This document shows, piece after piece, positions 1 through 36,104 of a DNA stretch of 64,000 bases. The stretch is from Gautieria morchelliformis (lineage: Eukaryota > Basidiomycota > Agaricomycetes > Gomphales > Gomphaceae): positions 1 to 64,000 of the forward strand of contig WHVA01000113.1 of NCBI GenBank assembly GCA_015179125.1. The letters run 5' to 3'. Numbering within the stretch: the first letter of the stretch is position 1; each line of letters opens with the position of its first letter. The position numbers and the translations under genes are program-made. The notes beneath the pieces were generated by a model that worked only from the letters and a program-made list of their open reading frames with translations, had not been told where the DNA came from and did no database searches.

Positions 1-1371
1 TCCCTCGATTCCGACGGATTTCTCCGGTACAAGTCCCGGATTTACGTTCCGGCACCAACGATCTACGACTTCGCGTGCTCCAGCAAAGCCACGATCATCC
101 GCTCTCAGGACACCAAGGCCAGAACAAGACCCTCGACATAATCCGACGCACCTATACTTGGCCTCTCCTCCGCACGATGGTCCAAGACTACTGCAAGTCA
201 TCACCACCTGTATGCGAGCCAAGCCTCAACGTCACAAACCCTACGGCCTCCTGAAGCAACTTCCGATCCCGGAACAACCGTGGAATTCAATATCCATGGA
301 TTCATTGAGAAACTTCCTAAGTCATCCGGCTATGATACCATTCTAGTGATCGTTGACCGCCTCACAAAGCATCCATCTTTATTCCAACCTACGACACCAT
401 AACTTCCGCCCAGCTCGCACAGCTCTTTGTGCTCCACGTCTTTTTCCAAGCACGGAATCCCTTCCCATGTCACTTCCGACCGTGGATCCGAATTCGTGTC
501 CTCCTTTTTCCGCACACTCGGCAAGGCTCTCGACATGAAGCTCCACTTCACTTCCGGTTATCACCGAAGGAGACGACAAACGGAACGTACTAATCAAACC
601 CTTGAGCAGTATCTCCGCATCTATTGCAACTATCAACACAGCAATTGGTCCGACCTCCTTCCGCTCGCGGAATTTGCCTACAACAATGCGCCTTCCGCTA
701 CCACCGGAATTTCACCCTTTTACGCCAACAAGGGCTACCACCCGAATCTTGCCATCCACCCTGAACGCGACCTCGCCTCTGCAAGAGCCCGAGATTTCGT
801 TGTGGAACTTGACGACCTTCACCAGCACCTCCGAGAGAACATTACCGCTGCCCAGAAGAGATACCAAACTTCCGCCGATCGGAAACGCCTTCCGCAACCG
901 GCATTCGAGATAGGCGACAAAGCCTTTGTCAAAGCGGAAAACTTCCGCACCACTCGCCCCTCGAAGAAGCTCTCTGAGAAATACCTCGGTCCTTACGAAA
1001 TCATCGCTAAGGCCGGCAGTCGTTCTTTCACCCTCAGACTTCCTGACAATATGCGCGCAGTACATCCGGTATTCCATGTCTCCATGCTTGAACCCGCAGT
1101 TCCGAATACAATTCCGAATCGAGAACAACCTCCGCCTCCGCCAGTCGTCATTGACGGAGAACCGGAATATGAGATTTCGGAAATTCTCAACTCCAAGCTC
1201 GACAGAAGATACCGCTGCCAACTCCAGTACCTAGTCAAGTGGGCAGGCTATGAAAACACTGACGAAGAGACTTCGTGGATTTCCGCCACGGAACTTGACC
1301 ACGCCTCTGACCTCGTCTCTGACTTTCACAAGTCATATCCTGATAAGCCTGGCCCCGTTTCCGCGCCCTAG
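1..1371 (+). pseudogene. Element A pol: integrase and chromodomain, frameshifted
   Basis: This is the C-terminal part of a gypsy polyprotein that would integrate element cDNA. The 5' 420 bases encode the zinc-binding and early core region (CTTCMRAKPQ-like stretch, then MDF-type first Asp near 300), but the frame changes at about 300, 370 and 445, partly at T runs. From 427 a 314-residue frame is open. It holds the second core Asp in SDRGSEF, the Glu in RQTERTNQ, the GPYEII/HPVFHVSML region typical after the core, and a chromodomain at about residues 245-300 (YEISEIL, LQYLVKWAGY, SWI). The stop is at 1369-1371. The broken 5' frames make it a pseudogene as written, though some shifts could be base-calling errors. 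Element C encodes a close relative. Confidence 0.85.
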
Positions 1372-1494
1372 TCAATTCCGACCCCACTTCCGATACCCCC
1401 ATTTCTTACGGTTCTTAAGTCACACACATTTCCGACTAATTTTCCATTATGATTTCCGACACTTCAAGAAACTATGTTACAAGTTATTCGACCC

Positions 1495-2724
1495 CTACTC
1501 CTCCCTCATTGTTTCCGCCTCTTCCTTCTCCGCTTCCGCACCCTCTTCCGCATGCCCCATCGGCACACTCACCAACTCTGTCTCCACCCTCGAATCCACC
1601 ACCTGGCTCGGACCCGCTTCCACACCATCCTCCTCCTGCATCCGCCACTCCATTCGTTCCCGGAGCATATTGTTCCGCCACTGGAACTCCCGCTTGATCT
1701 GCTCCACAACCGTCGACAAAACCGTCATCTGGTTCTGGAAGCTCAACAGCTGTTGCTGTTGAACCACGGACATCTCCTCGAGCGTATTCCGAATCCCGCG
1801 CTGGGATCTCCGGATACCCCTCAGACACTCTGCAATGTCGAGCAGAGGCGACATATCAGCCTTCCCGGTCGCCGGAACCCCTTCCGCCGTCTTTTTCCCG
1901 CTCGACCTTGGTTTCGACTTAGGGGTTTCTGGCCCCTCGGTCTCGACTCTCCGCCTTTTCCGCTCCACCCTCGCGGAACAGCCGTCCACGACGCACCGCC
2001 TCTTCTTGTCGCGGCACCGTTCACAGGCGGTTTCCCGCGGATTTTCTGACCAGACGCATTCTAGTCCTTTTACCTCGCAGGTGTCACAGGGCGCCTTTTC
2101 TTCTTCCCCGTCCCTTGTCTTCCGTTCCGGGTCGCGGGATTCTCCGGCCCCAACTCCCGGAGGTCGACAATGCGGGCCATCTTGTTCTTCCTGGCCTGTT
2201 GAAATTCGTCCGCCCTCCTTTTCCGATCCGCCACAAGGTTCACAACAGGAACTACTTCCTGTTGTTTTCCCTTCCCTTCAGGAGACGGCGTGTGTTCCGC
2301 CGTGTCTTCCGACTCCGGTTCGGAATCGGATTCGACGATTATTTCTACCAAGTTTTTTTTAGTCAGTCTCGGGATGAGGCTCAGAACCTTTCCGACTCAC
2401 CCGGGATTGTTCCGTTTTCTCCGCCACGGCCTTGTTTTCCGCAGCCTTTTGGGCCGCATCCCGTTTCCGCTGTTCTTCACGGACGCGCGATTCCTCCTCG
2501 CGACGTTTGCGGTCACGCTCCTCCTTCTCTTTCCGCTCCCGTTCCAGACGCTCCTGTTCCTCGCGCTCTTTCTCTTTGCGCTCCTCCTCCAGACGCTCTT
2601 TCTCCTTCCGCGCCGCTTCCTCGGCCTCGCGTTTTTCGGCCAACTCCTTTTGCGCGAGCATGTCAGCAAAGTGTGCTTTCATCTCAGCACTGGTCATTTT
2701 GGAGAAGTCGACTGGAGTGCTCAT
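1495..2724 (-). pseudogene. Antisense gene inside element A: coiled-coil plus Zn(2)Cys(6)-like cluster protein
   Basis: The gene lies on the opposite strand to pol, between the pol stop and the PPT, starting at ATG 2724. Three blocks in two frames read as one protein. The first, about 120 residues, starts MSTPVDFSKMTSAEM and continues as an almost uninterrupted E/R/K segment likely to form a long charged helix. The second is an acidic block (SDSEPESED) with a basic KKKR end. The third begins with two CX2CX6C units (CDTCEVKGLEC and CERCRDKKRRC) separated by ten residues, followed by basic RVERKRRR, a probable coiled coil (about QQQQLLSFQNQM to MEWRMQEED) and an acidic tail. The spacing fits the fungal Zn(2)Cys(6) formula CX2CX6CX5-12CX2CX6-8C, but the basic residues sit in the second half, unlike GAL4. 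Frame changes fall near 2352-2359 (run of eight T on +) and near 2090 (A-rich run). The function is unknown; DNA binding is inferred from the cysteine pattern only. Confidence 0.72.
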
Positions 2725-2758
2725 GATGAACTAAACAGAAGACGCGTCTTGTTTCCCG

Positions 2759-2768
2759 CCTATATTTC
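2759..2768 (-). promoter_or_regulatory. TATA-like box of the antisense gene in element A
   Basis: Read on the minus strand this is GAAATATAGG. It lies about 40 bp upstream of the antisense ATG at 2724 and inside the PPT, so it is not part of the LTR. A CACGTG hexamer lies further upstream at 2795-2800. Element C has a TATA-like word at the same distance from its own antisense ATG. Confidence 0.45.
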
Positions 2769-2833
2769 AAACTCCGACGCGTTTGTTCACAGGTCACGTG
2801 ATTCCGACTTGTGGTCTCGCGGGGCTCGACCTT

Positions 2834-2843
2834 AGAAGGGAGA
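2834..2843 (+). other. Polypurine tract of element A
   Basis: AGAAGGGAGA lies three bases before the LTR start at 2847, as expected for the plus-strand primer of reverse transcription. Confidence 0.7.
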
Positions 2844-2846
2844 TAC

Positions 2847-3497
2847 TGTTACAACCGTTCATTTCCGACTTCCGACCCTCAGTTCCGCCATACATTCCGC
2901 CCCTCCGACATTTCCGCCATTCCGCCCTTGTACATTTCCCTTGTTCTTTCGACTCTATTACTCGGACCCACCGGACCCACCTCGCCATCCATCAAAACCA
3001 TATATCCGGTCACCCTTGTAGTTCGTTGTCAGATATGTTCTTCCGACCCCTTGTTCTTTGCCATTGTTCTACCTTACCCTGAACCCCCTTGTAGTCCCAT
3101 TGTTCCCAATTAGTTAGTTCCCACACATTGTACTCGACTTCCGCTTCCTCCGGAATTTGTTTAGTACAACACCATTACTTGTTGCTCTGCGCTTTGTATA
3201 AAAACCCCCTCATGTATGTCTGTTATTCTGCAATCAGATAATCACCTTCGATACTTGATTTCCTTCGCTCCATCTCCTGTTCTTAGCACAGCGAGTCTAG
3301 CTCGATCTCAGTCTCTCCGTCTTCCGCTTTCCGCCTCAGTTCTGACTCAAGTTCCGACCAAACCTTTGGCTCAGTACTTTCCGACTTCCGACTCATTTCC
3401 GAAATACCTAGGACGATAGTTCATTGGGGGCGCAACCTATAAGTTGAAGCCGCTGTCCTTTCCAGTTCTGACTTAGTGGAAATCTCGATACGTAACA
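2847..3497 (+). repeat. 3' LTR of element A (651 bp)
   Basis: It starts TGTTAC right after the PPT and ends GTAACA at 3497, giving perfect inverted ends. It then abuts sequence that is continuous with element B1 pol. It is saturated with the word TTCCG. No second copy is in the window. Confidence 0.85.
3196..3202 (+). promoter_or_regulatory. TATA box in the element A LTR
   Basis: TATAAAA in the middle of the LTR, in element orientation, at the expected U3/R boundary. Confidence 0.65.
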
Positions 3498-4523
3498 GGG
3501 CTTTGATCCAGGCTCCAACTCGATGGCATGGTCCCACAGCTTCCGTGGAGGCAGGGCATCAAATGACTCCTTGGCAAAGACGTCCTCCAACTCCCGCAGG
3601 TACTCTGGAATTTCCGCCTCCACTCTATCATGCTTCTTGGAGGCTTCAGCAAGGCGTTGCGAAATATTTCCGGTGGTGCAGATGTGTTCCGCTTCCGGTG
3701 GAAGGTTTACGTACAGCAAGTGCTCTCCTTCTGCCAGAGTGTCTTCCGGGCCGAGTCGTATGATGTTGGAGTCGGAATCAGAATCAGAATCAGAAGTGGG
3801 ACCCGGTTCAAATTCCGCTTCCGAGTCTTCTTCTGCAAGCAGTGGATGGGGGCCAGAACAACATGTCTGTATGAGCCGTTCGGTCTTCCGCTGCTCCTGG
3901 CGCTCCTTCGGCACTTCCGACCGGCACGTGTGACACTTGGCTGGGCATCGACCCATCAGTACCTTCCGAGTCTGCCAATTGATCTCCGGGTTGTGTTCCT
4001 GAAGCCAGGTAAATCCAAGGATGACGTCTTCCTTCCCCAGACTGGTGACTGCAAAGGAAGTACGTTCTGAGTTTCCATCGTAGCAGAGAATTGTGTCTAC
4101 TATCTCCGTGATTGACCCTGCCTCATTGGGGCTTCCATCCACATTGAACACCGGGATTGCACGTTGCAACTTCCGCGTGGTCAGTCGGTTCCGTTCCACA
4201 TAGTCATGGTCTATAAACTGACCAGTGGCCCTGCAATTGACAAGGGCGGGTCCGGATTTGACTTCCGCTGTATCTGTTGTCTGGATCTCCACCTTAATGA
4301 CTAGTGACTTGGGGCCAGGGGTGGCAGAAACAACATAGCGCTTCGGGAGGCGTCTCTCCCAAGGGCGGATGCGGGATGGATGGGGTGTCGGATTTGGTTT
4401 TAGTGTGACTTTATCCGGTGGTTCTGTACGAAGTGAGGGGTGTGGGGGGTTTTCATTCTCTACTTCAAGACAGGCAAACCGGTTATGTACAGGCAGCAGG
4501 GGCACACATCTCACCTGCTGCAT
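3498..4523 (-). pseudogene. B1 pol N-terminus: aspartic protease and start of reverse transcriptase
   Basis: The frame opens at ATG 4523, overlapping the gag stop (4511-4513) by 13 bases in the -1 frame. It contains the retropepsin-like domain, but the active site reads NCRATGQF where B2 has DCGATGQF, so the catalytic Asp is lost. Downstream come an acidic serine linker (SDSDSDSDS) and the RT N-terminal region ending at ELEPGSKP. The frame then runs into the LTR of element A to 3408, which adds about 30 unrelated codons. RT palm, RNase H and integrase are absent here because A is inserted at 3498. Confidence 0.85.
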
Positions 4524-6725
4524 GTCACAAAATCCGACGCATCTTCCACTTCCGATGCACCATGTTCCGCATTTTCGGAAATTCCTTCCACAGTGAGCAC
4601 TCCACGTATGTCTGCGAGTGCGAGGAACTCTGGAAGGAGCTCAAGTGTCTCCTCTGTGGTCATAAGCCGGATGTCAAAGGCTTGGGGGCACTCGCGGGCA
4701 TAGTGGCCTGTTTGTCGGCATCGGAAGTGTCACGACCGGTTTATTTCTCCTACTGCGCTACCTCTATGTTCCCCCTCGTCACTCCCTAGCATCTTCGCCA
4801 GAGTTCGCCGCACCTACCGACCACTTCCCCTCTACGTTCACCCTACCCGCTGTTTGCCCCATTCTCCGAACCGCTATTCGCTCCTCGCGCATTTTGTTAG
4901 CAGGCACGGCATTGAATATGATCGATACCATTCACCCGGCATGATGGCTCATCATAAACCCCATCATCTTCTTAATCCGACCCCATTGGGTGTTCGTATG
5001 GCCAAGGCGTGATCGCAGGACGTCTCTTCCATAGGTCATGCAGGATCAACCCAGTAAATGGAGAGTCCGTGCAGGGTAGCATGTACGTGGGTCCCAAGAC
5101 ATGGTTTTGTCCATAAATGCCTTCGCTCCCTTTATTCTCCGTCGTTTCGCGTTCTCATTCTCCCCTCACTCTATTGTATGTTTATTCCATCTACCTAGTA
5201 TCATGACCACGCACCCCTATCCAACCCCGACTTGTGACGGCCTCTTTCCTATTCGCTGATACCTTACGAGCATTCTATATAAGTAGTTTACATTCGCATG
5301 TATATTCCCCAGTTCAATTATCATACGTCGTCCATCTTGTGCAAACTTGACCTCGCTGTGATCATCGTCTTGAGCCTCTCCTTGAAGATTTCTATCTTTG
5401 ACCAGCCAAGGACTTAGGCATCACTGGTGAGTTCTCATACTTCATCTTTGTTACCTTAGCCTTCGAACTACTTTCTGTGCTGTTGGCAAAGGGCTCCTAA
5501 GGAGCACCTTCGCCAGCGAAGGGACTGTCGAAACTTGGACAGCCCTTCCGCAATATCTTGCACGTTGCGTCGTCAAGTACTGCGAGCTGTTTCACTACGA
5601 CTGTAGACAGGGCGAGCCCCGTTCGGGCAACCCCTTTGTTTCATGAACATTCATCGGTTCACCTATTTGCCGAACGGCATACCTCTTCGCACAAGTTATT
5701 CGGGCATTCGTTGTGTTCACTAATACACGATATTAACACCTAAAAACCAATCTTGACAACAGGAAGCAGGTGATGGTTCCGTGGCCTTTTCCGCGCATGC
5801 AGTCAACATCCATCGGGGCAGGGCCACTCTTCGAGGGAGGGGGGCTAGGGCTCCTAATAGGAGCAGGCAGAACAACCATCGGAAATATTTTCCGTGTGGG
5901 AATGAATGCACTTCCGGGTTTTGGCACAGGTGGAGTGGGATGAGTGGAACTGCGTGTCATGTTCCGGTTTGTCTCCACAAAGGCCTCGTTTGCTTCCCTG
6001 TTTCGGGACACCCTCTGCGCAGCTTGGTACCACCCTTCCGGGTCACCAAAATCTGGAGCTCCATCCCCAACCAGCGCAACTTGGTTCTGGAGTGTCGGAT
6101 CAAGCCCTCGTCGAAATTTGATGACAATCGTCTTGTCGTTGTCATACTCCGCAAGGTCAATGAGCTCCTGGAAGCGGTCAATGTAGTCATCGACCGGATC
6201 CTTGGCCTGGTACCAGCTGGTCCCCTCGAGCTTCGTAAGGGCTGTGAGCTGCTCATTTTTCGGGCAGAACTGGTTGGAAAATGTTTTCTCGAAGGTGTCC
6301 CAGTCCCGGAAGTAGTTCCCCTTGCCCTTTGCTTCATGTCGGATCACCTTGTTTGCAAAACGGGCTGCACGATGCGACTTGAAAAAGGACAGTGCCCAGT
6401 GAATCCGAGCCTGGTCATTTGGAAAGAGGTCTCCGACAATTGCGAAGTAGATGCTACATGTGTTGAAGAATGCGCGTCCCTTCTCCCGATCTCCGTCAAA
6501 GTCCACCGGAGTTGCAGGTTTGACCTTTGCCAACTTCGCAGACATCCTCTTTTCCGCCAGTTCCGCTTTTCCGAAATCCGGCTCATCCAGCATTGCATTT
6601 CCACCACCTTGTGGAATATATAACTTAGCCAAAATCATTTGTAAGGCTGTTTCAATCGCGTCGGTCTTCATCCGGTTCCGCATCAATTCCTCCTCCATAT
6701 TCCGAAGGCGATCATCCAAATCCAT
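4511..6725 (-). pseudogene. B1 gag, split by solo LTR E1
   Basis: This is the structural capsid protein of the element. It starts at ATG 6725 (MDLDDRLRNMEEE) with a coiled N-terminus, then the retrotransposon-gag region (FFNTCSIYFAIVGDLFP, FRDWDTFEKTFSNQFCP, DDYIDRFQELI). The CCHC knuckle is cut: the part up to its first Cys lies right of E1 (near 5766) and the remainder (CRQTGHYAREC-like) lies left of E1 (near 4715). Rejoining across E1 and one copy of GGAAG restores the frame seen in relatives. The gag stop is TGA at 4511-4513, overlapping the pol ATG. No other frameshift is visible, unlike B2. Confidence 0.83.
4728..5761 (+). repeat. Solo LTR E1 (family E) in B1 gag
   Basis: One of four related 1.0-1.4 kb units with TG...CA ends. 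It is flanked by GGAAG at 4723-4727 and 5762-5766, a 5-bp target duplication. It has a TATA box (TATATAAG, 5276-5283), which sets the orientation, and two short perfect hairpins at 5493-5505 and 5507-5522. It carries no reading frame of interest. Its right end has three extra bases (ACA) compared with the other copies. Confidence 0.85.
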
Positions 6726-6912
6726 GTCAGAAGGGGAAATATGGGACGGGATTTCCGGAGTTGGGAGCTCGACGTAAGAAGAGGTGCTGTCGTATACCGT
6801 GTGCGCGGAAGAGGTTGCGATCTCCGAGTCGCTGTCTCCGATTCCGAACGCACCTATGGCGAATGCAACGCGCAGTATGACCGCCGGTGCTCTAGGGGAG
6901 AGACTTTTCTGC

Positions 6913-7162
6913 TGTAAGGGCAACCCTGGCCGGTTGTGGAGATCACACTACCACACAACTGACTGACAAGGGGAAATCCAAAGTATGGAAATTGGAGTGG
7001 AACTGGCAAGGCGAACAGAACTGGTGGAAGCTCTCCCACAAGCGGAATCATTTCCGAAAGCGGAGGCGGAGATGGAATTGGAACCGGAAGCGGAGTCGGA
7101 AATGGAGTCGGAACTGGGTGTGGTGTCGGAACTGGAAATGGAAAACAGGGTGTCCCCTGACA
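6913..7162 (-). repeat. 5' LTR of B1, internally deleted (250 bp)
   Basis: The ends match the B2 LTR (TGTCAGGGG start at 7162; TTACA end at 6913), but a stretch of about 230 bp that includes the TATA region is missing at about 6985. This copy should lack promoter function. Confidence 0.85.
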
Positions 7163-7169
7163 ATAATCC

Positions 7170-8865
7170 CTACAGGACAATCACTTCTGCATCTGTTGAC
7201 CAGTCGTGGTTTGGACATCCCAACGACACGCCCGTTGATGTCAGGGCACAGCCCTTCATCCTGTTCTTGAATGAAACATCGGGACTTTCACTCCAGGGAC
7301 GTGAGGGAGCAATATTACAAAGGAGAGTAGTTGTGCGGTTTGAATACAAGTGCCGAGGGGCCTGTGCCTTGGCATCGGACACGTCTGCCTCTGCGACCGA
7401 GTCCGACCAAGAAGATAAAGGTTCTAACCATCTCACGCAACGTAAAATGCGTTGGAAACAATGCCCAGGTGAAGTTACACTTGTGGTACTGTCTCTGTTT
7501 TATTTAACTATTGTAGCGCTAATGATCCGGTCATACAGCTTGAGGCTTATGCTGATGACTTGACTCGTGTCACCGTCTGGCAAGCAGGTACTCACGAAGA
7601 TGCAAATCCAACAGAGTTACTTTGGTCTCGGCGTTTGCGTAGCCTGGTATCTGAGCGGCTGAGGCTGGTAGGTGTCAAGGCTACAACGGTTCTGTGCGGT
7701 ATGTACCTTACCTACTGCAAATACCTTCAGGAGAAACCCACATAAAATTGCGTTACAGAGCTAGTTAACCAGTATTGGACCCCGTTGCTCACTTCCAGAC
7801 CAACGAATGCCCCAACTGACATAAGTGACAACTTCCCAACATTCCGCAGGCCAACTGCCAAACAGATCAGGCAGTTGTTACCTGCCATCATTCGCCGAGC
7901 ACAGCTCAACCAGGATCCGTTCACTGCTGTCACAATCCTGAGGAATTGCAATCCGCACAATATCTACAAGTGCGTCCCTACGCATATATCCATCGCAAAC
8001 CGTTATTCCTGACATATTTTTACCAAATTTGTAGCTTTATCCCTGATAATTCAAGAAAACCTGATAGTCAGTCCCGATTCACATGCGCTATGGCAGATGG
8101 TTTCACTCTGGAGAATTTAATTCTCCACAGCACACGGGATGGGTTGGCCGCAGATACCAGCTGGCGCAATAAAAATGAGAACCGTGCTGCCGTTACGTTC
8201 CTGATTGCGGTCAATCAGCATCAACACTTTGTTCCAGGTCAGTCATTGTGAGTTGCTGTGGTGTATTGTATCTAATGGGAGCCGTTCATCTACTGTGATG
8301 TATGTAGGATCGGTATTGCTGTCTGCAAATGTATGCACACAGACCTTAGCCACATACCTGGAAGCTACCAAGGTCAAAGTAGGACAATGAGCAAAAGAGA
8401 TTAACACAGGTACGTATATTCCTGAAAGTCATATCGTCTTAATCTCATACATCGGAAGATCCTAACTGCATTGCGTCCCCTAGGGTGTACATGACCCTCG
8501 ATTCTGCAGACGTTTCCAATGCCCGAGAATCCACAAGTGTAGAAAGGGCTCGAGTGGAACACGCAGCGACCAACAAAACACGAGAGACTAGGTTATCTTT
8601 AGCTATAGATGCAGCTCTGGAGGTTGGGTCTGCTCTAGCTACAGATCAACTACCCTTGATTCGACTTGTGAAGACCACCGAGGGATGGAAAGCATCCGCC
8701 GGTGCTCTTCCACATGGTAAACTGCGAGCACAGGATACCTCTGGTGACGGCTTGGCAATAAATCACACGGGCACTCAGAAGACCTCCAACCCTACGCGAA
8801 AGCGAAGCCCTGAAGGAGTCCTGGCACCGGCAGATGTAGGGTGGCATCTGCGGCCCCGAAAATAG
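7170..8865 (+). pseudogene. Decayed multi-exon gene, possibly a MULE-like transposase
   Basis: Several blocks read as exons joined by good short introns: 7700-7757 (GTATGT...TTACAG), 7971-8032 (GTGCGT...CTGAC...TTGTAG), 8239-8308 (GTCAGT...TGTAG) and 8411-8483 (GTACGT...CTAAC...CCCTAG). The exon text includes FEYKCRGAC, QLEAYADDL, TVWQAGTHE, IIRRAQLNQDPF, DTSWRNKNENRAAVTFL and SANVCTQTLATYLEATK. The DTSW...N...P/A..FL pattern resembles the first catalytic Asp region of MULE transposases, and the rest resembles a repeated uncharacterised family of basidiomycetes; this is recognition from memory and not proven. A frame slip near 7517 and an in-frame stop near 8388 break it, and the last block (8485-8865) may be its C-terminus after an internal deletion. 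B1 abuts its 5' side. Confidence 0.45.
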
Positions 8866-13850: not shown

Positions 13851-14786
13851 CAGGGCCCATAACCCTGTTAGATGCAGTTGATAGTTAGGATGGAAAAGAT
13901 AAAAATTGATTATCAAGCAATGTCTCGAAAATCCCTATATACATGAATTTGGATCTGGGATAAGAAATCAGTAAACTACCTTGAGTCACTGTTGTACACT
14001 ATGGCTACATGACTAAGCTATACATGTGTCATCGATGCTTGAGTGACAGTTACCTTACAACTTTCTGTTTGTTTACAGTGCCTAATCACCTTAGATACTT
14101 ATCAGTACCAATTGGTTTCCATAGGTCTTATATGCTGCATAGAAGTCCAGGAGCCTCATACTTCTAACACTTATCAACACCTATCAGGGGGTGAACCACT
14201 GTAGTAATCACTACTACAGATAGGGTGGGCGGCAGGGGCAGTTCAAACCTGACGCTCTCCCTTCATGTTACCCTGAGCAGGCGCTTGGTGTGGGTTAGAT
14301 CCACCTGTGCTAACCCCCCCTGAATGGGGTCTTGACACTACTGGCCCCCAAGGGCTCAACCCTGTGTGAAAGGTGGGCAGGGTGTGGCATGAATACTTCC
14401 CTACCATGCAAACACCAATGTGGGTTGAGAGGCAATGTATTGATGGGGATTTTGATATATTATGGCATTGGTCAGTGGAGGCTGGTCATGGCTGGTGGCA
14501 GGAGTGATGGTGAATGATGTGAATGGCAAAGGTGCTTGGGAACACATCAAACAGCAAGTGTGGAAAATGGATATGTCAATAGGTGATGAGTTGAACAGGA
14601 GTGGGTTGGGCCATAATAAACGAGTCATAACACTGCATTTGGATGCCCCATATTGTGCTCATTCCTGTGGTTGTCATTCCTTGGCTCTCTCATGTTCCCT
14701 GTGGTCCCGCTGGCCTTCACACTCATATTGTTGATCTTCCTGCACTTGTTCTTGGATAGAGATGTGTCCATGGTCTCTTTGGGTCT
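13851..14786. other. No gene seen
   Basis: Non-coding sequence up to the B2 5' LTR. No repeat partner recognised in the window. Confidence 0.45.
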
Positions 14787-15266
14787 TGTCAGGGGACACC
14801 CTGTTTTCCATTTCCAGTTCCGACACCACACCCAGTTCCGACGCCATTTCCGACTCCGCTTCCGGTTCCGATTCCATCTCCGCATCCGCTTTCGGGAACG
14901 ATTCCGCTTCTGGGAGAACTTCCACCAGTTCCGTTCGCCTTGCCAGTTCCACTCCAATTTCCGACTTCCGCCCCGGAACAGTGTCGGAAATCAAGCGACT
15001 CGCATAATAGGTGGCATCAAGGGTCGATCAAGGGTCAGGGGGATGCAGGGTTGATGGCGGGTGCCAAGTGTTGTCCCTGGCTGCGCAGCGTAGTATAATA
15101 CGGGCTCGCTGACATTGGGGGTCCTTAGACTTTTCTCTTTGGATTTCCCCTTGTCAGGTGAGAACCCCCTCTCTTGTATGCTCTGTTCATTTATACATAC
15201 TTTGGATTTCCCCTTGTCAGTTGTGTGGTAGTGTGATCTCCACGACTAGCCAGGGTTGCCCTTACA
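14787..15266 (+). repeat. 5' LTR of B2
   Basis: 480 bp, TG...CA. U3 is rich in TTCCG words. A 21-bp segment is repeated directly at 15137-15157 and 15200-15220. Confidence 0.93.
15094..15100 (+). promoter_or_regulatory. TATA box in the B2 LTR
   Basis: TATAATA in element orientation, repeated at 20835 in the 3' LTR. It is missing from the deleted B1 LTR and present in solo LTR B3. Confidence 0.6.
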
Positions 15267-15453
15267 GCAGAAAAGTCTCTCCCCTAGAGGACCGGCGGTC
15301 GTACTGCACGTTGCATTCGCCATAGGTGCGTTCGGAATCGGAGACAGCGACTCGGAGATCGCAACCTCTTCCGCACATACAGTGTACGACAGCCCCTCTT
15401 CTTACGTCGAGCTCCCAACCCCGGAAATCCCGTCACATATTTCTCCTTCCAAC

Positions 15454-16627
15454 ATGGATCCGGACGATCGTCTGCGGAATATGGAGGAGGAATTGACGCG
15501 GAACCGGATGAAGACCGACGCGATTGAAACAGCCTTACAAGCGATTTTGGCTAAGTTAGATATTCCACAAGGTGGAGGAAATGAAATGCTGGATGATCCG
15601 GATTTCGGAAAAGCGGAACTAGCGGAAAAGAGGATGTCCGCGAAGTTAGCAAAGGTCAAACCCGCAACTCCGGCGGACTTTGACGGAGATCGGGAGAAGG
15701 GACGCGCATTCTTCAACACATGCAGCATCTACTTCGCAATTGTCGGAGACCTCTTTCCGAATGACCAGGCTCGGATTCACTGGACGTTGTCCTTTTTCAA
15801 ATCGGACCGCGCAGCCCGTTTTGCAAACAAGGTGATCCGACATGAAGCAAAGGGCAAGGGGAACTACTTCCGGGACTGGGACGCGTTCGAGAAAACATTT
15901 TCCGACCAGTTCTGCCCGAAAAACGAGCAGCTCACAGCCCTTACAAAGCTCGAGGGGACGAGCTGGTACCAGGCCAAAGATCCGGTCGATGACTACATCG
16001 ATCGCTTCCAGGAGCTCATCGACCTTGCGGAATATGACGACGACAAGACGATCGTCATCAAATTCCGACGAGGACTTGATCCGACGCTCCAGAACCAAGT
16101 TGCGCTGCTTGGGGATGGAGCTCCGGATTTTGATGACCCGGAAGGGTGGTACCAAGCCGCGCAGAAGGTTTCTCGGAACAGGGACGCAAATGAGGCCTTC
16201 GTGGAGACGAGTCGGAACACGACACGCAGTTCCGCTCGTCCTACTCCACCTGTGCCAAAACCCGGAAGCGCATTCATTCCCACACGGAAATTATTTCCGA
16301 TGCTTGCTCCGCCTGCTCCTATTAGGAACCATAGCCTCCTCCCTCGAAGAGTGGCCCTGCCCCGATGGATGTTGACCGCATGCGCGGAAAAGGCCACGGA
16401 ACTGTCACCTGCTTCCGCTGCCGACAACCAGGCCACTATGCTCGCGAGTGCCCCAAGCCTTTGATATCCGGCTTATGACCACAGAGGAGAAACTCGAGAT
16501 CCTTCCAGAGTTCCTCGCACTTGCAGACATAAACGGAGTGCCCACTGCGGAAGAACTTTCCGAAAATGCGGAACATGGTCTACCGGAAGCGGAAGATGCG
16601 TCGGATTTTGTGACACGCAGCGGGTGA
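15454..16627 (+). pseudogene. B2 gag (capsid/nucleocapsid) with two one-base losses
   Basis: The ATG at 15454 (MDPDDRLRNMEEE) is chosen because no ATG precedes it in the open frame and B1 starts at the same point. A coiled N-terminus is followed by the retrotransposon-gag domain (DFDGDREKGRAFFNTC, FRDWDAFEKTFSDQFCP, DDYIDRFQELIDLAEY). The CCHC knuckle CFRCRQPGHYAREC at about 16410-16451 is in another frame, because a C run near 16335 is one base shorter than in B1. A second C-run contraction at about 16452 moves the tail (LMTTEEKLEILPEF) to the third frame, which ends at TGA 16625-16627. B1 reads straight through both places. Confidence 0.85.
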
Positions 16628-19600
16628 GATGTGTGCCCCTGCTGCCTGTACATAACCGGTTTGCCTGTCTTGAAGTAGAGAATGAAAAGCCCCCACTCCC
16701 CTCACTTCGTACAGACCCACCGGATAAAGTCACACAAAAACCAAATCTGACACCCCGTCCATCCCGCATCCGCCCTTGGGAGAGACGCCTTCCGAAGCGC
16801 TATGTTGTTGCGGCCACCCCTGGCCCCAAGTCACTAGTCATTAAGGTAGAGATCCAGACGACCGATACGGCGGAAGTCAAATCCGGACCCGCCCTTGTCG
16901 ATTGCGGGGCCACTGGTCAGTTTATGGACCGGGACTATGTGGAACGGAACCGACTGACCACGCGGAAGTTGCAACGTGCAATCCCGGTGTTCAATGTGGA
17001 TGGAAGCCCCAATGAGGCAGGGTCCATCACGGAGATAGTGGACACAATTCTCCGCTACGATGGACACTCGGAACGCACTTCCTTCGCTGTCACCAGCCTG
17101 GGGAAGCAAGACATCATCCTCGGGTTTACCTGGCTTCAAGAGCACAACCGGAGATCAATTGGCAGACTCGGAAGGTACTGATGAGTCGGTGTCCAGCCAA
17201 GTGTCACATGTGCCGGTCGGAAGTGCGGAAGGAGCGCCAGGAGCAGCGGAAGACTGAACGGCTCATACAGACATGTCGTTCCGGCCCCATCCACTGCTTG
17301 CAGAAGAAGACTCGGAAGCGGAATTTGACCCGGATCCCCCTTCCACTTCCGATTCCGACGCCATCCGACTTGGCCTGGAAGACACTCTGACGGAAGGGGA
17401 GCGCTTGCTGTACGTAAACCTTCCGCCGGAGGCGGAACACATCCGCGCCACCGGAAATATTTCGCAACGCCTTGCTGAAGCCTCTAAGAGGTATGATAGA
17501 GTGGAGGCGGAAATTCCGGAGTACCTGCGGGAGTTTGAGGACGTCTTTTCCAAGGAGTCGTTTGATACCCTGCCTCCACGGAAGCTGTGGGACCACGCCA
17601 TCGAGTTGGAGCCTGGGTCAAAGCCCACCAACTGCAAGGTCTACCCGCTGTCGCCCAAGGAGCAGGTAGAGCTCGATGCATTCCTTGCGGAAAACCTCCG
17701 TACAGGGAGGATCCGCCCCTCCAAGTCACCCATGGCATCTCCGGTGTTCTTCATCAAGAAGAAGGATGGCTCGCTCAGACTTGTGCAGGACTACCGGGCC
17801 TTGAATGCGATCACGATCAAGAACCGGTACCCCATTCCACTCATTTCCGAACTGATCACACAACTCCGCGGGGCGAGGTACTTCACTAAGCTGGATGTCC
17901 GCTGGGGCTTCAACAATGTCCGGATCCGGAGGGAGACGAGTGGAAGGCCGCATTCCGCACCAATCGAGGACTCTTTGAGCCACAGGTCATGTTCTTTGGC
18001 CTCACCAACAGTCCCGCCACATTCCAGACGATGATGAATGACATTTTCCGTGACATGATAGCAGAAGGGGTTGTCTGCGTCTACCTCGATGACATCCTCA
18101 TTTTCACGAAAACAATGTCCGAACATCGGGAAGTCGTGCGGAGAGTGCTGGAACAGCTCGGGAGTACAACCTGTGTCTCAAGCCGGAAAAGTGCGAATTG
18201 AGCGGACGCGGATAGAGTATCTTGGGGTGATTGTGTCGGAAGGGAAGGTGGAAATGGACCAAGTCAAAGTTTCCGGTGTATCGGATTGGCCCGTGCCGCG
18301 AAACAAGAAGGAGGTCCAGTCCTTCATTGGGTTTGTCAATTTCTACCGGCGGTTCATCAAGGACTTCTCCTGCCACGCCCGTGCCCTCTTCGACCTCACC
18401 AAGAAGGAGGTTGGATGGCGGTGGGGAGAGCCGGAACAGACTTCCTTTGACAAACTCAAGGAGCTGATCACTTCCGCTCCGGTCCTGATCTTTCCCGACG
18501 ACTCTCGCCCTTATCGAGTCGAGGCGGATTCTTCCGACGCAGCTACCGGAGCGGTCTTGTCACAGCAGTCATCGGAAGATGGTGGGGGGTGGCATCCGAT
18601 TGCCTTCTTCTCTAAGAGCCTTAGTCCGGTCGAGCGGAACTATGAGATCCATGACAAGGAGATGCTGGCAATCATCCGAGCACTGGAGGAGTGGCGACAC
18701 TTCCTCGAGGGTGCTCTATGCCTTTTGAGATCTGGACAGACCACAAGAACCTCGAGTATTTCCGCACATCTAAGAAGCTGAACCGACGACAAGCACGGTG
18801 GTCCCTACACCTGTCCCGGTTTGACTTCATGCTCCACCACCGCCCCGGCCGCACCATGGGCAAGCCCGATGCCCTATCCCGCCGCGCGGATCACGGAAGC
18901 GGAAGTGGAGACAACGCGGATATGACACTGCTCCGCCCAAGTCTCTTTGCAATCCGTGCCCTAGAAGGAGTAACTGCAGTTGGGGCGGAAGCGGAAATGC
19001 TCCGGGATATCCGGAGGCAGTACCGGAATGGAGAGAAGGAGGAGTCGGTGGTGAAGGCAGTGGAGGAACTCCGGAAAGGGCACTCACGGTCTGTACGGGC
19101 AGCGGAATGGTCGGAACGTGATGGACTGCTCCACTTCAGAGGCAAGGTCTATGTTCCGGGTGGGGCGGACCTCCGCCGTCGCATCGTGTCCCAGCACCAT
19201 GACACACGGGTCGCTGGGCATGCTGGCAGGTGGAAGACGCTGGAGTTAGTGGCTCGGAATTACTGGTGGCCTCAGATGTCCCGCTACATCGGACAGTACG
19301 TGAAGACGTGTGACCTTTGTCTCCGAACCAAAGCGCAACGACGTCCGCCCATCGGAGAACTTGTTCCGCTCCTGATTCCCGAATCCCGCTGGGACACCAT
19401 CAGTGTCGACTTCATCGTTGAACTCCCAGAGTCTCATGGCTACGACGCGATCATGAACGTCGTGGATTCGGTGAGCAAGGTGTCCCACTTCATTCCGACG
19501 CACACGACGATCACAGCCCTCGGAGCGGCCCGCCTGTTCCTTGCACATGTCTGGAAGTTGCATGGGCTCCCGAAGCAAGTTGTTTCCGACCGAGGTCCGC

Positions 19601-20748
19601 AGTTTGTCGCGGAACTGACTCGGGAGCTCTACCGCCTGCTCGGCATAAAGCTGGCTACCACCACAGCGTACCATCCGCAGGGTGACGGACAGACGGAACG
19701 GGTCAATCAGGAGTTAGAGCAATATCTCCGCCTCTTTGTCAATGAGAGGCAGGATGACTGGGATGAGTTACTTCCGCTGGCGGAATTCCAATACAACAAC
19801 CATGTCCATTCCGCCACGCAACAGACTCCCTTCATGCTTGACTCCGGACGACACCCGCGGATGGGCTTCGAACCACGCCAGGCTGAGTCCCGACTCGAGA
19901 CAGTCAATGAGTTCCGAGACCGCATGGACTCCACCCTTTCGGAAGCCAAGTCGGCCCTTGCGAAGGCCAAGGATGACATGGCAAGGTACTACAACCGACG
20001 CCGGGTTCCTGCCCCAGAGTACCAAGTTGGAGACAAGGTGTACCTAGATGCAAGTGACATCCGCACCACACGCCCTTCGCAGAAGCTTGCCCACCGCTAC
20101 CTTGGGCCCTTCACAGTGACGCGGAGGGTTGGACGGAATGCATACCGCCTCCGACTTCCGATGTCCATGTCCCGCCTCCACCCCGTCTTCAACGTGGTGA
20201 AGTTACTCCCTATGCTTGAGGACCCAATTCCACATCGGAAGGCTCATCCGCCACCTCCGCCAGAAATTGTAGATGGGGAAGAGCACTACGTGGTGGAACG
20301 GATCCTGGACAGCCGGTTTGTGCGAGGACGACTCCAATTCCTCGTGAAATGGGAAGGGTATGGGTATGAGGAGAATTCTTGGGTCCCAGAGCAAGATGTT
20401 TCCGCTCCTGACAAACTCCGGGAGTTCTATAGGACACATCCAGGTGCCCCTCGCCGAATCCGCTCGCTGGCATTTCAATCCCTTGTGTCCCGTGCTTCGA
20501 GGACGCAGCACGCTAGAGGGGGGGTGATGTCAGGGGACACCCTGTTTTCCATTTCCAGTTCCGACACCACACCCAGTTCCGACTCCATTTCCGACTCCGC
20601 TTCCGGTTCCGATTCCATCTCCGCATCCGCTTTCGGGAACGATTCCGCTTCTGGGAGAACTTCCACCAGTTCCGTTCGCCTTGCCAGTTCCACTCCAATT
20701 TCCGACTTCCGCCCCGGAACAGTGTCGGAAATCAAGCGACTCGCATAA
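16624..20748 (+). pseudogene. B2 pol: protease, RT, RNase H, integrase, chromodomain, serine-rich tail
   Basis: The domains in order are: protease DCGATGQF (about 16900); RT with [29 protein letters not shown] and the YLDD catalytic motif (about 18085); RNase H with VEADSSDAATGAVLSQQ and WTDHKNLEYF; integrase with the HH-CC zinc site (HHDTRVAGH, CDLC) and D, D, E in SVDFI, SDRGPQF and GQTERVN; chromodomain (HYVVERILDS, LQFLVKWEGYGYEENSW). All active residues are present. One-base losses near 17149, 17285, 17932, 18160, 18200 and 18715 each shift the frame the same way; after 18720 the frame is open for 2 kb. It lies in the -1 frame relative to the end of gag. The last 73 codons run into the 3' LTR and stop at 20746-20748. 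Confidence 0.9.
20515..20524 (+). other. Polypurine tract of B2
   Basis: AGAGGGGGGG three bases before the 3' LTR. It is also codons of the pol frame. Confidence 0.7.
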
Positions 20749-21007
20749 TAGGTGGCATCAAGGGTCGATCAAGGGTCAGGGGGATGCAGGGTTGATGGCG
20801 GGTGCCAAGTGTTGTCCCTGGCTGCGCAGCGTAGTATAATACGGGCTCGCTGACATTGGGGGTCCTTAGACTTTTCTCTTTGGATTTCCCCTTGTCAGGT
20901 GAGAACCCCCTCTCTTGTATGCTCTGTTCATTTATACATACTTTGGATTTCCCCTTGTCAGTTGTGTGGTAGTGTGATCTCCACGACTAGCCAGGGTTGC
21001 CCTTACA
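20528..21007 (+). repeat. 3' LTR of B2
   Basis: 480 bp, one base different from the 5' LTR by eye. Its first 221 bases are open in the pol frame. Confidence 0.93.
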
Positions 21008-29712: not shown

Positions 29713-30223
29713 TGTTATGATACGATCCGTTGCAAGGTTGACCGAGCTCGGGGACAAAACCCAAGGTAAGGTCCCAGGTTATGGGGTGAGGGTCTGATAG
29801 GGAGGTCAGAGAGGGACTTGGCTTCTGCTTATGTGCTGCGCTGACACCTACGTACGAGTCCCAACTTCGGAGGTAAATGAATAAGAGGCGAGGTTTGGCT
29901 TAAGAGGCGAAGACTTAGAAACTAGCTAGGGATCAAAGAGTATGATAGTTGATTTTCAGACTGAAGAATAGGAATGCATACAGCGGGTTTATATATGGGT
30001 GAGGGTAAGGGTCAGGGGCGAGCATATACGGGCGAATCAGGGTGAGGTCAATATACAAATGATGCGTGATGGAACGGGATAAGTAACTAAGAGGACTCGG
30101 GCATGGGATCAAAGTCGGATATGAGCTCAGGCTCGGGCTCCGGCTAGGGCTTAGAATAACAAGGCTCGGGCTCGGAAAAAAGGTTGTACCGGTAAGTAAC
30201 CGGCCAAAGGCTGGGTCCTTACA
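29713..30223 (-). repeat. 3' LTR of element C (511 bp)
   Basis: On the minus strand it starts TGTAAGGACC after the PPT and ends ATAACA. It is homologous to 36105-36690 throughout but lacks part of a short tandem array. Confidence 0.85.
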
Positions 30224-30226
30224 GTA

Positions 30227-30237
30227 TTCCCCCCCTA
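30227..30237 (-). other. Polypurine tract of element C
   Basis: Minus strand TAGGGGGGGAA directly before the 3' LTR. Confidence 0.7.
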
Positions 30238-30323
30238 TGAACGAGGTTTGCCTATCCTCGAATCTAGATCCCGGCCCGATGTTAAGTAGCCAGAAAGGTG
30301 AAGCTTAAATTGTAGCCGAGGTT

Positions 30324-30333
30324 AGATAAAAGG
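30324..30333 (+). promoter_or_regulatory. TATA-like box of the antisense gene in element C
   Basis: AGATAAAAGG about 40 bp before ATG 30370, outside the LTR, at the same spacing as in element A. Confidence 0.4.
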
Positions 30334-30369
30334 CTGGGTAGGAGGCAGCAAAACCAAGTGCCAGCGAAT

Positions 30370-31133
30370 ATGGTGCACCCACAAGCTCTATTCAACTCTG
30401 CGGTCGATGTGAACAGTGCCAGCAACGCATTCGACCAAACACTGCTCTCTCAGGAGGACAGTTCCTCGGGTGAAGTTATGCCCAAGGTTCAACCCGAGAC
30501 TGCTCTGAGGCCCATTGAGGATGATGGTGCCATTGATATGCGGGAGCTGTGGCAAGTAGGGCTGAAAGGCAAAAAGGTGAGTGCCATGTGGTCTTGGGAA
30601 GAATGTCGCTGACTTGAATAGTACAAATGTATGCTGTTTGCATTCCACCCGACCAACCTGTCGCCATACAGGTACAAGCTCACCGACGGCAGGCCTCGCG
30701 AGTGGCAGATCGCGACCAAGGCCGAGGCGAGGTGCGTGTGCTGCAAGGAGCATGATTACACATGTCTGGGCGCCGTGAGCCTCGACTTCAGTCTCGCTGA
30801 CCTCGGGGCTTGCGTCTGGTGCCGGACACGGTTGCTGGGCTGCAGTATAGCCCACGGCTGCCGCGGCGGAGGCAGCAAGGCAAACAAGGGAAAGGGTCAG
30901 GTGAGCGAGGGGAGGAAGCATGTGCAGAGCGAGGACAGCGAGGATGGACCAAGGCGAGGAAGGAGGCCAAGGTTCGGGATGAGGTCAAGGACTGCGACTC
31001 AAGCGACTGGGTCGAGCAAAATTCGGAGGCGAGGGTGGAGTGGATGGAAGTGAGGCAGAGTGAGGGGAAGGAAACCAAGGTGGAGGAAGGTCGGAAGCCG
31101 AAGAAGGACAAGAAGACAAAAAGCTCGCAGTGA
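30370..31133 (+). pseudogene. Antisense gene inside element C: double CX2CX6C protein, one intron
   Basis: It runs opposite to gag-pol, between the integrase end and the PPT. Exon 1 is 30370-30576 (ATG at 30370; 69 codons). The intron is 30577-30621 (GTGAGT...CTGAC...TAG, 45 bp), phase 0. Exon 2 begins YKCMLFAFHPTNLSP. The key feature is two CX2CX6C units, CVCCKEHDYTC and CVWCRTRLLGC, 15 residues apart, followed by a basic GGSKANKGKG segment. The frame stays open to 31053; after about 30900 another frame (to 31133) looks more natural (SSDWVEQNSEARVEWMEV, KPKKDKKTK), so a frameshift or second intron is likely. More acidic coding-like text reaches about 31362. The N-terminus differs from the gene in element A, but position, orientation, promoter spacing and cysteine units agree. 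Biochemical role unknown. Confidence 0.65.
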
Positions 31134-31529
31134 AGTGCAGAGATGAGGGAGCTGATAATGGCAGTGAGGATGTGGGGCAAAAGGTCGGCAAGGTTGGGGA
31201 GAGGGTGTGTGAGGTAGAGTTCATGAGGATAAGGTGAAGGAGGAACTACCTGAAGTGGATGCAGGCAGCGAGAGACTTGGCCGAATATGGGGGAAATGGG
31301 GGTTTAGTGGAGCGGAGTAGTAGTAGTAACAAGGAGGAGATGGGTGAGGATAGCGAGGAGAGCTAGGTGGAGGATATGAGGATGTTGGAGTAAACTAGCT
31401 ACTGGGATTAATGGAATTTTCTTGTTGTTTTTCTTTCTTTTTGTTTTGTTGTTCGATTGCGAGGGATTTTTTGTTATCTAACTACTGGGGGGGTCATGGT
31501 GGTTAAACAAGGAAATGATCATAGAGCAG

Positions 31530-34500: not shown

Positions 34501-34777
34501 TAACCCATTGTTGTTCGCCAGTCGAAAAGCAAATGCAAAGGTCTAGAGCTTGAGTAATGGTAGTGTTAGTACTACCGTCAAATAGTTTCAGAGGTATCGG
34601 GGAGACAGGATAAGCAGGCATAGAGTGTTTCTGGACAAATCTGGATTCAATAAAACAATCTGAGGACCCACAGTCAACTAATGCAACAAAAGCGACGTTG
34701 GGGAGCGAAGGCGAGGTTAAATCTACATTAAGGGAATCTTTGGACAATGAATGAGAGGCGGAACTGAGTCTGAGCAC
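31530..34777 (-). pseudogene. Element C pol with internal deletion of the RT palm
   Basis: The protease reads VALVDCGSSDCFIESRF (34680) and VLGHNWL. The RT N-terminus is intact through HGAPVLVVHKKDGSLWLC and KIDLRHAYHLVRV to FRTRYGSFE. It then jumps in frame to RFIHNHSDITIPL, a segment that normally lies about 150-170 residues later, so the palm with its YxDD motif is missing (junction about 33640). RNase H (ILTHWIPDLTLIVETDGSDY), the integrase zinc site (CKTCTTCMRSKPQ) and core (NSISMDFIEQLP), and a degraded chromodomain (EFEVSEILDSK) follow, with several frame changes and a stop near 33565. It cannot encode an active polymerase. Confidence 0.87.
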
Positions 34778-34827
34778 ACGGGTGAGGTTACCGCAATCCT
34801 CGGATCGTGTGGTTCCGAGGTTGCTAC

Positions 34828-36060
34828 CTATTTTTTCACCTCCGTAATGGAGGCCGAAGTCCCCTCGTTAGGGGTCTTCGCTGCCCGACCTTTAGAACCG
34901 CTACCGTTGGTAGACTTGTTCTTTGGGCAGTCCTTGACGATGTGGCCCTTGGTGCCGCACAGCAGACAAAGGCCTTGGTCGACCCGACGTTGGCGCTCCT
35001 CGGGAAGTAATTTGCCATCCTTCCCGAGTTTGCTCGAAATGTCGGGCTGACCTTTGTTGTTCGAAGAGTTGTTGTTGTTGGAACCCTTGACATTGTTGTT
35101 AGTCTTGTTGCAGTTCTTATTGTTATTAGAACCGCTGGAAGACTGGTTGTTGTTAGTGGCATTGCTGCTGGACTGATTAGTGGTGCGTGCAGGCTGGGAG
35201 CTACGACCATTGATCATGGTGTCATATTCCTTACGCTCCCAGTAACGGCTGTCGCATTCCAGCGCGAAGTTCCTAAGCTCGGCAAGGCTGCGGAATCGAG
35301 GGAAATGAAGTAAGTCGTCCTTGATTAGTTTGGCCAAGCCCTTGTAGGCGAAGTGTCGGAGGGCCGCATCGTTCCACTGAGTCCGAGTCGAAGCTTGGGC
35401 GAAGTCGATAAAGAATCGCGGGGCCTTGTGGTGCTCCTTCATAACGATCTTCTCGAGGTCAATCTTGGCTTGGGCAGCGTTGTCGTATGGGCCGAAGTTG
35501 AGCTCGAGCTCGGCCTTGAAGCTGTCCCAGTCTTCGAGCCAATCTGGCTCGGGTAGAACTTCGCCGAGGATTGCCGGCTCAAAATACTGTAGAGCTGAGC
35601 CGGACAGGTAAGAAATAGCATACTGCACCTTCGAGGCCCCAGTCTTGAAAGCTGTGGGGCGATCTCTGAAATTGAGTACGCATTGAAGGAGGAAGGTGTG
35701 AAGCTTGGCCTGGTCAGTACCGTCATAACTATCCGGTTCCTTGACCTTGGCTCGTGCTTCGGACTCGCGAGGTTTCGCAAGTTTGATGAACACTCGACGC
35801 ATGAGCTCGTTGTCCTCGAGGTCACCGAGGTCCTCGGGTGGCAGGTTGGGGAGGTCCTGATCGTTGTCAGAACTTCCAGAGCCATCACCTGGGTCACATG
35901 AAGGATCACTGGGGTTAGCCCTACCTTTGCCTTTGTTACTAGGCTCGGCGGGGGCTGCGAGGGGTATCCCCGGGGACGGTGGTGAGTCGTCGGGGGCTTC
36001 CGAGAAACGACGTTGTTCTGAGATACCCCGAAGGGTGCAAGAACGAGTTATCATGGACAT
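34828..36060 (-). CDS. Element C gag (410 residues, intact)
   Basis: This is a capsid/nucleocapsid protein. ATG 36060 (MSMITRSCTLRG) lies 44 bases after the 5' LTR; the open frame upstream is LTR sequence. An acidic, proline-rich N-terminus (residues 20-85) precedes the gag domain (LHTFLLQCVLNFRDRP, YLSGSALQYFEP, WDSFKAELELNFGP, residues about 110-245). An unusual N/S-rich low-complexity linker comes next (NNNQSSSGSNNN and similar, about 290-340), then one CCHC knuckle CLLCGTKGHIVKDC. It ends KK-stop just before pol. It is the only long intact gypsy gag in the window, so it might still be expressed although its own pol is dead. Confidence 0.85.
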   Translation of the reverse strand: MSMITRSCTLRGISEQRRFSEAPDDSPPSPGIPLAAPAEPSNKGKGRANPSDPSCDPGDGSGSSDNDQDLPNLPPEDLGDLEDNELMRRVFIKLAKPRESEARAKVKEPDSYDGTDQAKLHTFLLQCVLNFRDRPTAFKTGASKVQYAISYLSGSALQYFEPAILGEVLPEPDWLEDWDSFKAELELNFGPYDNAAQAKIDLEKIVMKEHHKAPRFFIDFAQASTRTQWNDAALRHFAYKGLAKLIKDDLLHFPRFRSLAELRNFALECDSRYWERKEYDTMINGRSSQPARTTNQSSSNATNNNQSSSGSNNNKNCNKTNNNVKGSNNNNSSNNKGQPDISSKLGKDGKLLPEERQRRVDQGLCLLCGTKGHIVKDCPKNKSTNGSGSKGRAAKTPNEGTSASITEVKK

Positions 36061-36104
36061 AGTGAAGAAGAGGGATACGTAGGGTGTAAGCAGTCTGAAA
36101 ATAC

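Follow-up and report, generated by a model that had tools for sequence, protein, structure and literature searches.

What does a gene do that lies inside a retrotransposon and is read against it? The question is raised by the left end of a 64,000-nt stretch of the Gautieria morchelliformis genome (assembly GCA_015179125.1, contig WHVA01000113.1, positions 1–64,000 of the forward strand; the whole stretch is referred to as the window), which is filled by the 3′ part of element A, a Ty3/gypsy chromovirus. Antisense additional genes of long terminal repeat (LTR) retrotransposons have long been described, and their function is unsettled (PMC7264820). The antisense gene of element A encodes a protein with a cysteine motif like that of the fungal binuclear zinc cluster (Zn2Cys6), and element A is dense in the motif CGGAA. 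The answer to which we give slightly better than an even chance is that the gene product is a self-encoded, probably positive regulator that would bind CGGAA on the element itself.

In the window copy, the C-terminal part of pol (403–1371, plus strand; integrase end, SH3_Tf2-1 and chromodomain) is degraded in frame upstream and has its stop codon at 1371, and the 3′ LTR (2847 to ~3497, plus strand; TGTTAC...GTAACA) follows a polypurine tract (AGAAGGGAGA, 2834–2843, plus strand), the tract and the LTR ends having been read from the sequence. Here a first-pass annotation had placed an oppositely oriented set of reading frames with a TATA-like box of its own, and the location holds: minus-strand frames occupy 2730–2359 (with a MSTPVDFS... 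start at 2724), 2396–2070 and 2277–1495, the last of which contains CDTCEVKGLECVWSENPRETACERCRDKKRRC, a CX2CX6C-X10-CX2CX6C motif at 2088–1993. The frames are real, but they form one two-exon gene on the minus strand, with exon 1 at 2724–2401 (MSTPVDFSKMTSAEM... followed by a long K/E/R-rich stretch), a predicted phase 0 intron at 2400–2345 (GTGAGT...CTGAC...TAG) and exon 2 at 2344–1495 (zinc motif, basic patch, long helix and an acidic tail ending in ...ETMREE). Exon 2 is frame-broken in the window copy, and intact copies exist elsewhere in the genome. A 123-bp gap (1372–1494) separates the convergent stop codons of pol and the antisense gene.

The genome searched was a single 122-Mb assembly, in which the exon-2 frame as query gave 147 places scored at E ≤ 0.001 from 897 candidates. 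Sixty copies were compared, consisting of the 20 best loci (that of the window included) and 40 picked from the 147, a non-random choice that leans toward similar and intact copies; as copies were located via the antisense gene itself, A elements without the gene would escape detection. A pol match lay beyond the 3′ end of the gene in 20/20 best loci and an A-LTR match on the other side in 19/20, the exception (L019) being without both the LTR match and exon 1. The antisense gene is a fixed part of element A. The TATA-like box did not prove general: in the region upstream of the gene (2728–2800 in the window, minus strand) CACGTGACCTGTGAACAAA is present in 46/60 copies and GAAAGATAGG in 39/60, compared to 12/60 for ATATAG and one more copy with a plain TATA, leaving a conserved TATA box unsupported.

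With the intron removed, at least 375 aa were read by 40 of the 60 copies, compared to only 12 that read at least 390 aa unspliced, and a single continuous unspliced frame was rejected on this basis. The spliced reading was taken from 58 copies, since L019 lacks a start and L032 a donor; L016 terminates early yet exceeds 375 aa. The donor GTGAGT is kept between the exons while the sequence behind it varies in content and length, with a donor GT in 59/60 copies, a CTNAY branch-like site in 58/59 and an AG acceptor in 58/59 (the acceptor of L034, where there is no AG, was set by homology, and the donors of L034 and L043 are imperfect). All 40 intact copies have exon 1 ending in phase 0, and introns are 51–58 nt in length, their lengths falling into all three classes modulo 3 (16/9/15 among the 40 spliced-intact copies). 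Because the length varies over all three classes, the antisense transcript is evidently spliced. Such an intron can survive retrotransposition because it is not an intron on the sense RNA, a line of reasoning that is established. Stop-free runs on the sense strand across the gene are also long (median, 269 aa), so that frame length alone is weak proof, and the evidence lies in the intron and in codon evolution.

The ratio of nonsynonymous to synonymous substitution rates (dN/dS) was estimated pairwise (Nei-Gojobori; non-independent pairs) among the 40 spliced-intact copies. Median dN/dS fell from 0.25 through 0.21 and 0.19 to 0.15 as dS increased over bins spanning 0.15 to 2, the lowest value coming from 315 pairs with dS of 0.8–2, and the ratio of nonsynonymous to synonymous differences per site (pN/pS) was lowest in the zinc region (0.12) and highest in the tail (0.49). 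The antisense gene is under purifying selection, and the expectation of the first-pass annotation that a genuine gene would keep its frame in other copies and show such selection is borne out on both counts. A chance frame or a one-off insertion of a host gene, compatible with the first observation of one broken copy in the window, is ruled out by the number of places scored, the same architecture in the best loci, the spliced-intact copies and purifying selection, and retains practically no probability.

The antisense protein (~390 aa) comprises a conserved N-terminus, the K/E/R-rich stretch, an acidic linker, the cysteine motif (1993–2088 in the window, minus strand), a basic patch, a long helix and the acidic tail. 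Cysteines 1–5 of the motif are present in 40/40 intact copies and the sixth in 39/40, and their spacing satisfies the rule for Zn2Cys6 domains (PF00172), CX2CX6CX(5-12)CX2CX(6-8)C. PF00172 was matched at E ≤ 1 by 26 of 31 exon-2 proteins (best E 1.7e-4), a weak signal; taken separately, the first cysteine half corresponds to positions 15–36 of the Zn_clus profile (E 0.0019) and the second to positions 1–13 (E 1.4, weak). The second half in the antisense protein is the basic one, CRDKKRRC, which we take to be like the basic half of Gal4. AlphaFold predicts a 78-residue helix (residues 166–243; predicted local distance difference test (pLDDT) 87–98 in 10-residue blocks over 171–240), a coiled-coil candidate at 1618–1851 of the window (minus strand; position carried over from the L003 model), that would supply the downstream helical element of Zn2Cys6 proteins, and, at modest confidence, short helices within each cysteine half.

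The zinc-cluster assignment has several results against it. The exon-2 frame of the window scores 17.8 bits against PF00172, below the cut-off of 21; the two halves run in the opposite order to that of the classical domain, in which the basic recognition half comes first; and the zinc region is modelled with low confidence (blocks of 62–75; mean 63.7 for the domain alone). No relevant match to the antisense protein was found in the PDB by sequence, Foldseek gave no significant match to the whole model (three at E 6–7: DNA-bound Pho7, a chain of the yeast inner-kinetochore complex, and dynactin) and none to the zinc domain alone, and protein searches returned no zinc-domain homologue outside this genome, an absence that is weak because these searches need shared exact words and because transposon genes are often omitted from annotations. 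The zinc-cluster identity put forward by the first-pass annotation is supported within these limits: the product is like fungal Zn2Cys6 proteins in its cysteine spacing and weak family matches, basic recognition half, predicted downstream helix and enriched CGG-containing motif (below), and unlike them in its reversed halves, sub-cut-off window score and location in a retroelement. Most probably it is a zinc-cluster protein that would act in the nucleus, dimerise through a coiled coil and bind DNA.

Two further observations concern the protein. A seventh cysteine (CVVDGC, residue 231 in L004 numbering) lies five residues past the six-cysteine motif in 40/40 intact copies. The sole match from the protein searches was an exon-1 fragment in the G. 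morchelliformis protein JB92DRAFT_3134898, which agrees with the assembly at 100% over residues 1–81 and 127–167 and less well elsewhere, where the comparison reads through introns. An annotated host protein, P0001 (C763:29442-31593, L061), opens with ~65 residues that belong to A-type exon 1 and are fused to a different gene, which may reflect a captured antisense promoter and exon 1 or an artefact of the gene model.

CGGAA (TTCCG on the other strand) is the top over-represented 5-mer in the A LTR of the window (15 sites, 1.7 expected; maximum of 6 in 200 simulations), as well as in the A pol part (26, 4.1 expected) and the antisense gene (21, 5.4 expected), and against a second-order background it occurs 67 times over window positions 1–3498 where 26.8 are expected. 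All 60 A loci carry it at 10.2–20.9 per kb (mean, 16.3), and in one 5′ half it reaches 18.3 per kb across LTR, gag, protease and reverse transcriptase. Among 54 of the 60 LTRs (the other six were excluded from the motif-retention test), each holds 9–20 sites, usually of the form TTCCG[A/C]C when read on the sense strand, with a mean of 14.1 TTCCG to 1.3 CGGAA on that strand, and forms a dense array largely in one orientation. Genome-wide, the paired motif has 2687 occurrences compared to 248 for a reversed control. In the remainder of the window CGGAA also leads (209, 98.6 expected), the dense places being copies of element B, a distant gypsy element; features outside A and B hold 0.2–3.3 sites per kb, except for a short stretch at 53.5–54 kb (14.0 per kb) that matches the B LTR. 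Separately, tandem arrays of the heptamer TTCCGCC were observed at C14:202159-202277 and C2:274980-275014, as if the motif grows by tandem duplication.

Between copies, the motif is better retained than other CG-containing 5-mers in the LTR (0.81 vs 0.66), the 3′ gap (0.83 vs 0.38) and the gene (0.67 vs 0.45), while private decay of CpG is equal (0.103 for the motif vs 0.099 and 0.105); L019 and L032 were excluded from the gene and gap parts of the retention test and from the decay test, which also omits copies without three near neighbours. Because decay is equal and retention is not, selection on replicating lineages is a likelier cause of retention than mutability. A peptide or codon effect was rejected, CGGAA being present in all three pol frames, as was a strand-specific RNA signal, since strand bias varies within B (TTCCG to CGGAA of 9:2 in the LTR, 8:15 in gag and 23:40 in pol). 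The fission-yeast zinc-cluster protein Pho7 binds TCG(G/C)(A/T)xxTTxAA sites, two of which are described as containing a single CGG triplet (PMC5559640), which makes CGGAA a plausible type of target. The antisense protein most likely recognises CGGAA (G[T/G]CGGAA), as far as these patterns indicate.

A related element in the window, element C (~29.7–36.2 kb; 29713–36233, minus strand), has an antisense double-CX2CX6C gene of its own at the same place, with exon 1 at 30370–30576, a 45-nt phase 0 intron at 30577–30621 and a shortened exon 2 at 30622–31053 (all plus strand; CX2CX6C-X15-CX2CX6C at ~30733–30843), convergent with the C-terminal end of pol (31530–32357, minus strand). A search for C-type genes scored 150 places from 513 candidates. 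Among eight loci fetched, an exon 1 match and convergent pol were found in seven and neither in L066, and the intron was located in 8/8. Only L064 of the seven with a start yields a long spliced protein (355 aa); two of the others are open to ~204 aa, one to 212 aa, and three break early. In two additional loci, exon 2 is open over 295 aa (L070) and 293 aa (L071). Four C exon-2 sequences gave dN/dS of 0.13–0.16 over six pairs. The pol end of L064, L065, L068 and L069 is 73–77% identical to that of A over 287–310 aa, compared to 50% over 330 aa for the degraded copy in the window. In a comparison of profiles (hhalign), the A-type and C-type antisense proteins have their six cysteines in register, though weakly (E 0.012, probability 3.6), and homology of the two is unproven; no C-type match was found among viral contigs.

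The recognition half of the C-type protein is CRTRSLGC, which differs from CRDKKRRC in A, and the enriched motif differs as well. In the k-mer tests (six of ten C loci: L062, L064, L065, L068, L070 and L071), the 6-mer CCTCGC headed the ranking in L062, L065 and L068, was second in L064 and came third in L070 and L071, at about three- to five-fold over background, a fold like that of GCGGAA in A with lower scores. CCTCGC occurs at 1.36 per kb in A (60 loci) and at 0.64 per kb in B, and CGGAA in C loci L062–L069 is at 0.9–5.0 per kb. In the window copy of C, CCTCGC is enriched in the gene (8, 1.9 expected) and from pol to the 5′ part (14, 3.6 expected). Between A and C, the enriched motif follows the type of antisense protein, at least in the loci compared here.

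Element B (14781–21007 of the window, plus strand; ends from repeat coordinates) is 39% identical to A in pol and nearly as rich in CGGAA (108, 40.2 expected), and has no antisense gene, as its pol runs into the LTR and leaves no room for one. Element B sequence at ~3498–7200 is likewise rich in CGGAA and without an antisense gene.

The antisense gene sits in a stretch (window 1372–2740) that was observed, there and at loci L011, L031, L045 and L059, to be several-fold more divergent than the adjoining pol and LTR. Among 33 copies with LTR, pol and an intact gene (528 pairs), median divergence is 3–6% in pol, 16–25% from just past the pol stop through 2450, 10–13% in exon 1, 5% at 2751–2850 and 3–10% in the LTR; by class, it is 30% in the intron and at antisense third positions, 7% in the LTR and 5% in pol. 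Loci L011 and L059 are close to each other in the LTR (2.1% difference) and in pol (0.9%) and far apart at antisense third positions (39%); in L037 and L039 the difference is ~6% throughout. Of the 77 pairs with backbone divergence <3%, 14 exceed 20% at antisense third positions, and all 14 include L059 (n = 12) or L031 (n = 3, one shared). Judging from these comparisons, exchange of the cassette by recombination is clear in one or two copies, where the exchanged part is bounded near the pol stop on one side and near the antisense promoter on the other. The higher divergence of cassettes in general suggests either further exchange at earlier times or a faster pace of cassette evolution.

The favoured reading joins these observations as follows. 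Sequences just inside the LTR would drive transcription of the antisense gene toward pol, and the transcript would be spliced a single time; the product would bind zinc, dimerise and occupy the CGGAA arrays over the LTR, gag, pol and the antisense gene; and the bound protein would either raise the expression of elements carrying the arrays or counter their silencing. Some results weigh against it, in addition to those bearing on the zinc cluster. The 54 closest pairs have a higher dN/dS (0.35–0.47), and among 20 copies with a stop-free pol end, pol is under tighter constraint (0.05–0.10) than the antisense gene (0.14–0.49). The stretch before the gene (2846–2728) has no retention effect, with motif occurrence matched in 0/56 comparisons. 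Private CpG decay, being no different at the motif, gives no sign of the shielding from methylation that a methylation-blocking model might predict. CCTCGC is not enriched on the LTR side of the window copy of C (1, 0.7 expected), and the parallel with A is incomplete in this respect. Finally, CGGAA is common to A and B and hence not specific to the group that carries the gene, and a host factor could read it.

That host factor defines one of two rivals of substance: a factor of the fungus, used by A and B alike, would read CGGAA, and the antisense protein would have another nuclear task, such as chromatin association or import of complementary DNA. Motif density on B without the gene fits this account, as do motif sites within coding regions in all frames, unlike a simple promoter, the lack of CCTCGC enrichment on the C LTR side, and 17 other Zn_clus matches in the genome, none at the antisense-gene places listed. 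It is harder to square with element C, which is nearer to A in pol (73–77%) than B is, yet lacks CGGAA enrichment and carries a different zinc-motif protein together with a different 6-mer; the link between motif and protein type would be a coincidence, and we hold the host-factor account to be rather unlikely. The main rival, which we also consider unlikely, keeps the protein on the same arrays and reverses its sign, so that it would repress the element as a form of copy-number control or superinfection-like immunity, the cassette types being comparable to phage immunity regions. Convergent antisense placement agrees with repression, and antisense proteins of retroviruses, HBZ among them, are described as located in the nucleus and as having an important part in the viral life cycle (PMC11963269); divergent cassettes on near-identical backbones in some copies also resemble an exchange of immunity modules. 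However, the zinc region is the best conserved part and the same motif is found in all 60 A loci, which gives no hint of a specificity that changes with the cassette, and B, which would gain nothing from repressor sites, is dense in them. The motif density of B without a gene therefore mildly favours a positive role, and B may use the factor of A. A functional antisense RNA, acting through double-stranded RNA with the frame incidental, would follow from the overlap with the sense genomic RNA and is a role discussed for plant elements (PMC7264820); the dN/dS of 0.15–0.25 (pairs with dS above 0.15), together with invariant cysteines and an open frame that persists across a length-variable intron, requires a protein, and this account is strongly disfavoured, with very little probability left to it.

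A positive self-encoded regulator could be extended to a more tentative proposal, which we regard as possible but well short of probable: a spliced antisense gene for a reversed-order zinc-cluster protein would form an exchangeable regulator cassette that moves between backbones as group-specific pairs of protein and motif (A with CGGAA, C with CCTCGC), with B free-riding on the factor of A. If the favoured reading is true, a retrotransposon encodes its own sequence-specific regulator, a related element has a second pair with a different tuning, and another element may live as a regulatory parasite. As a DNA-binding module and a candidate motif occur on one element, the function of antisense genes becomes directly testable. 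Apart from these elements, a repeat array with a spacing of mostly 33 bp was observed at 57569–57948 of the window.

Among known systems, HBZ of human T-cell leukaemia virus type 1 (HTLV-1), a bZIP protein and not a zinc cluster, is likewise the product of an antisense regulatory gene of a retroelement, with no homology claimed. Plant antisense open reading frames (aORF-3R) are described in the same position and orientation and in most copies, with a nuclear or DNA-binding role proposed, and gene23 of plant Grande has its own promoter (PMC7264820, PMC11963269); in the accessible text of these papers no zinc cluster or element-wide target motif is described, and the word 'intron' is absent from their main text. 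Boty, an LTR retrotransposon of the fungus Botrytis cinerea, likewise has an additional gene in antisense, brtn, at the same place, for which the accessible accounts mention no zinc cluster (PMC7264820, PMC8365987). Because antisense genes are known there in plants and Botrytis, the placement and direction of the gene are not in themselves novel. The literature covered, which mostly did not extend to subscription papers, contained no zinc-cluster or comparable antisense gene with a motif for fungal retroelements, and the zinc-cluster antisense gene with a candidate target motif would be the new part.

The VANDAL elements of Arabidopsis are DNA transposons. Their VANC anti-silencing proteins are likewise described as element-encoded and DNA-binding, with short, dense, same-orientation motif arrays as targets, and VANC relatives have different targets, with motifs specific to the element group (PMC5735166, PMC10398659). 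Element A has closely spaced motif sites in gag and pol as well, whereas the VANDAL motif is described as mainly non-coding (PMC5735166), and CGGAA is common to the distant element B in place of being confined to the encoding group. Should the cassette prove exchangeable, it would be a retrotransposon counterpart of the anti-silencing modules of transposons or the immunity modules of phages.
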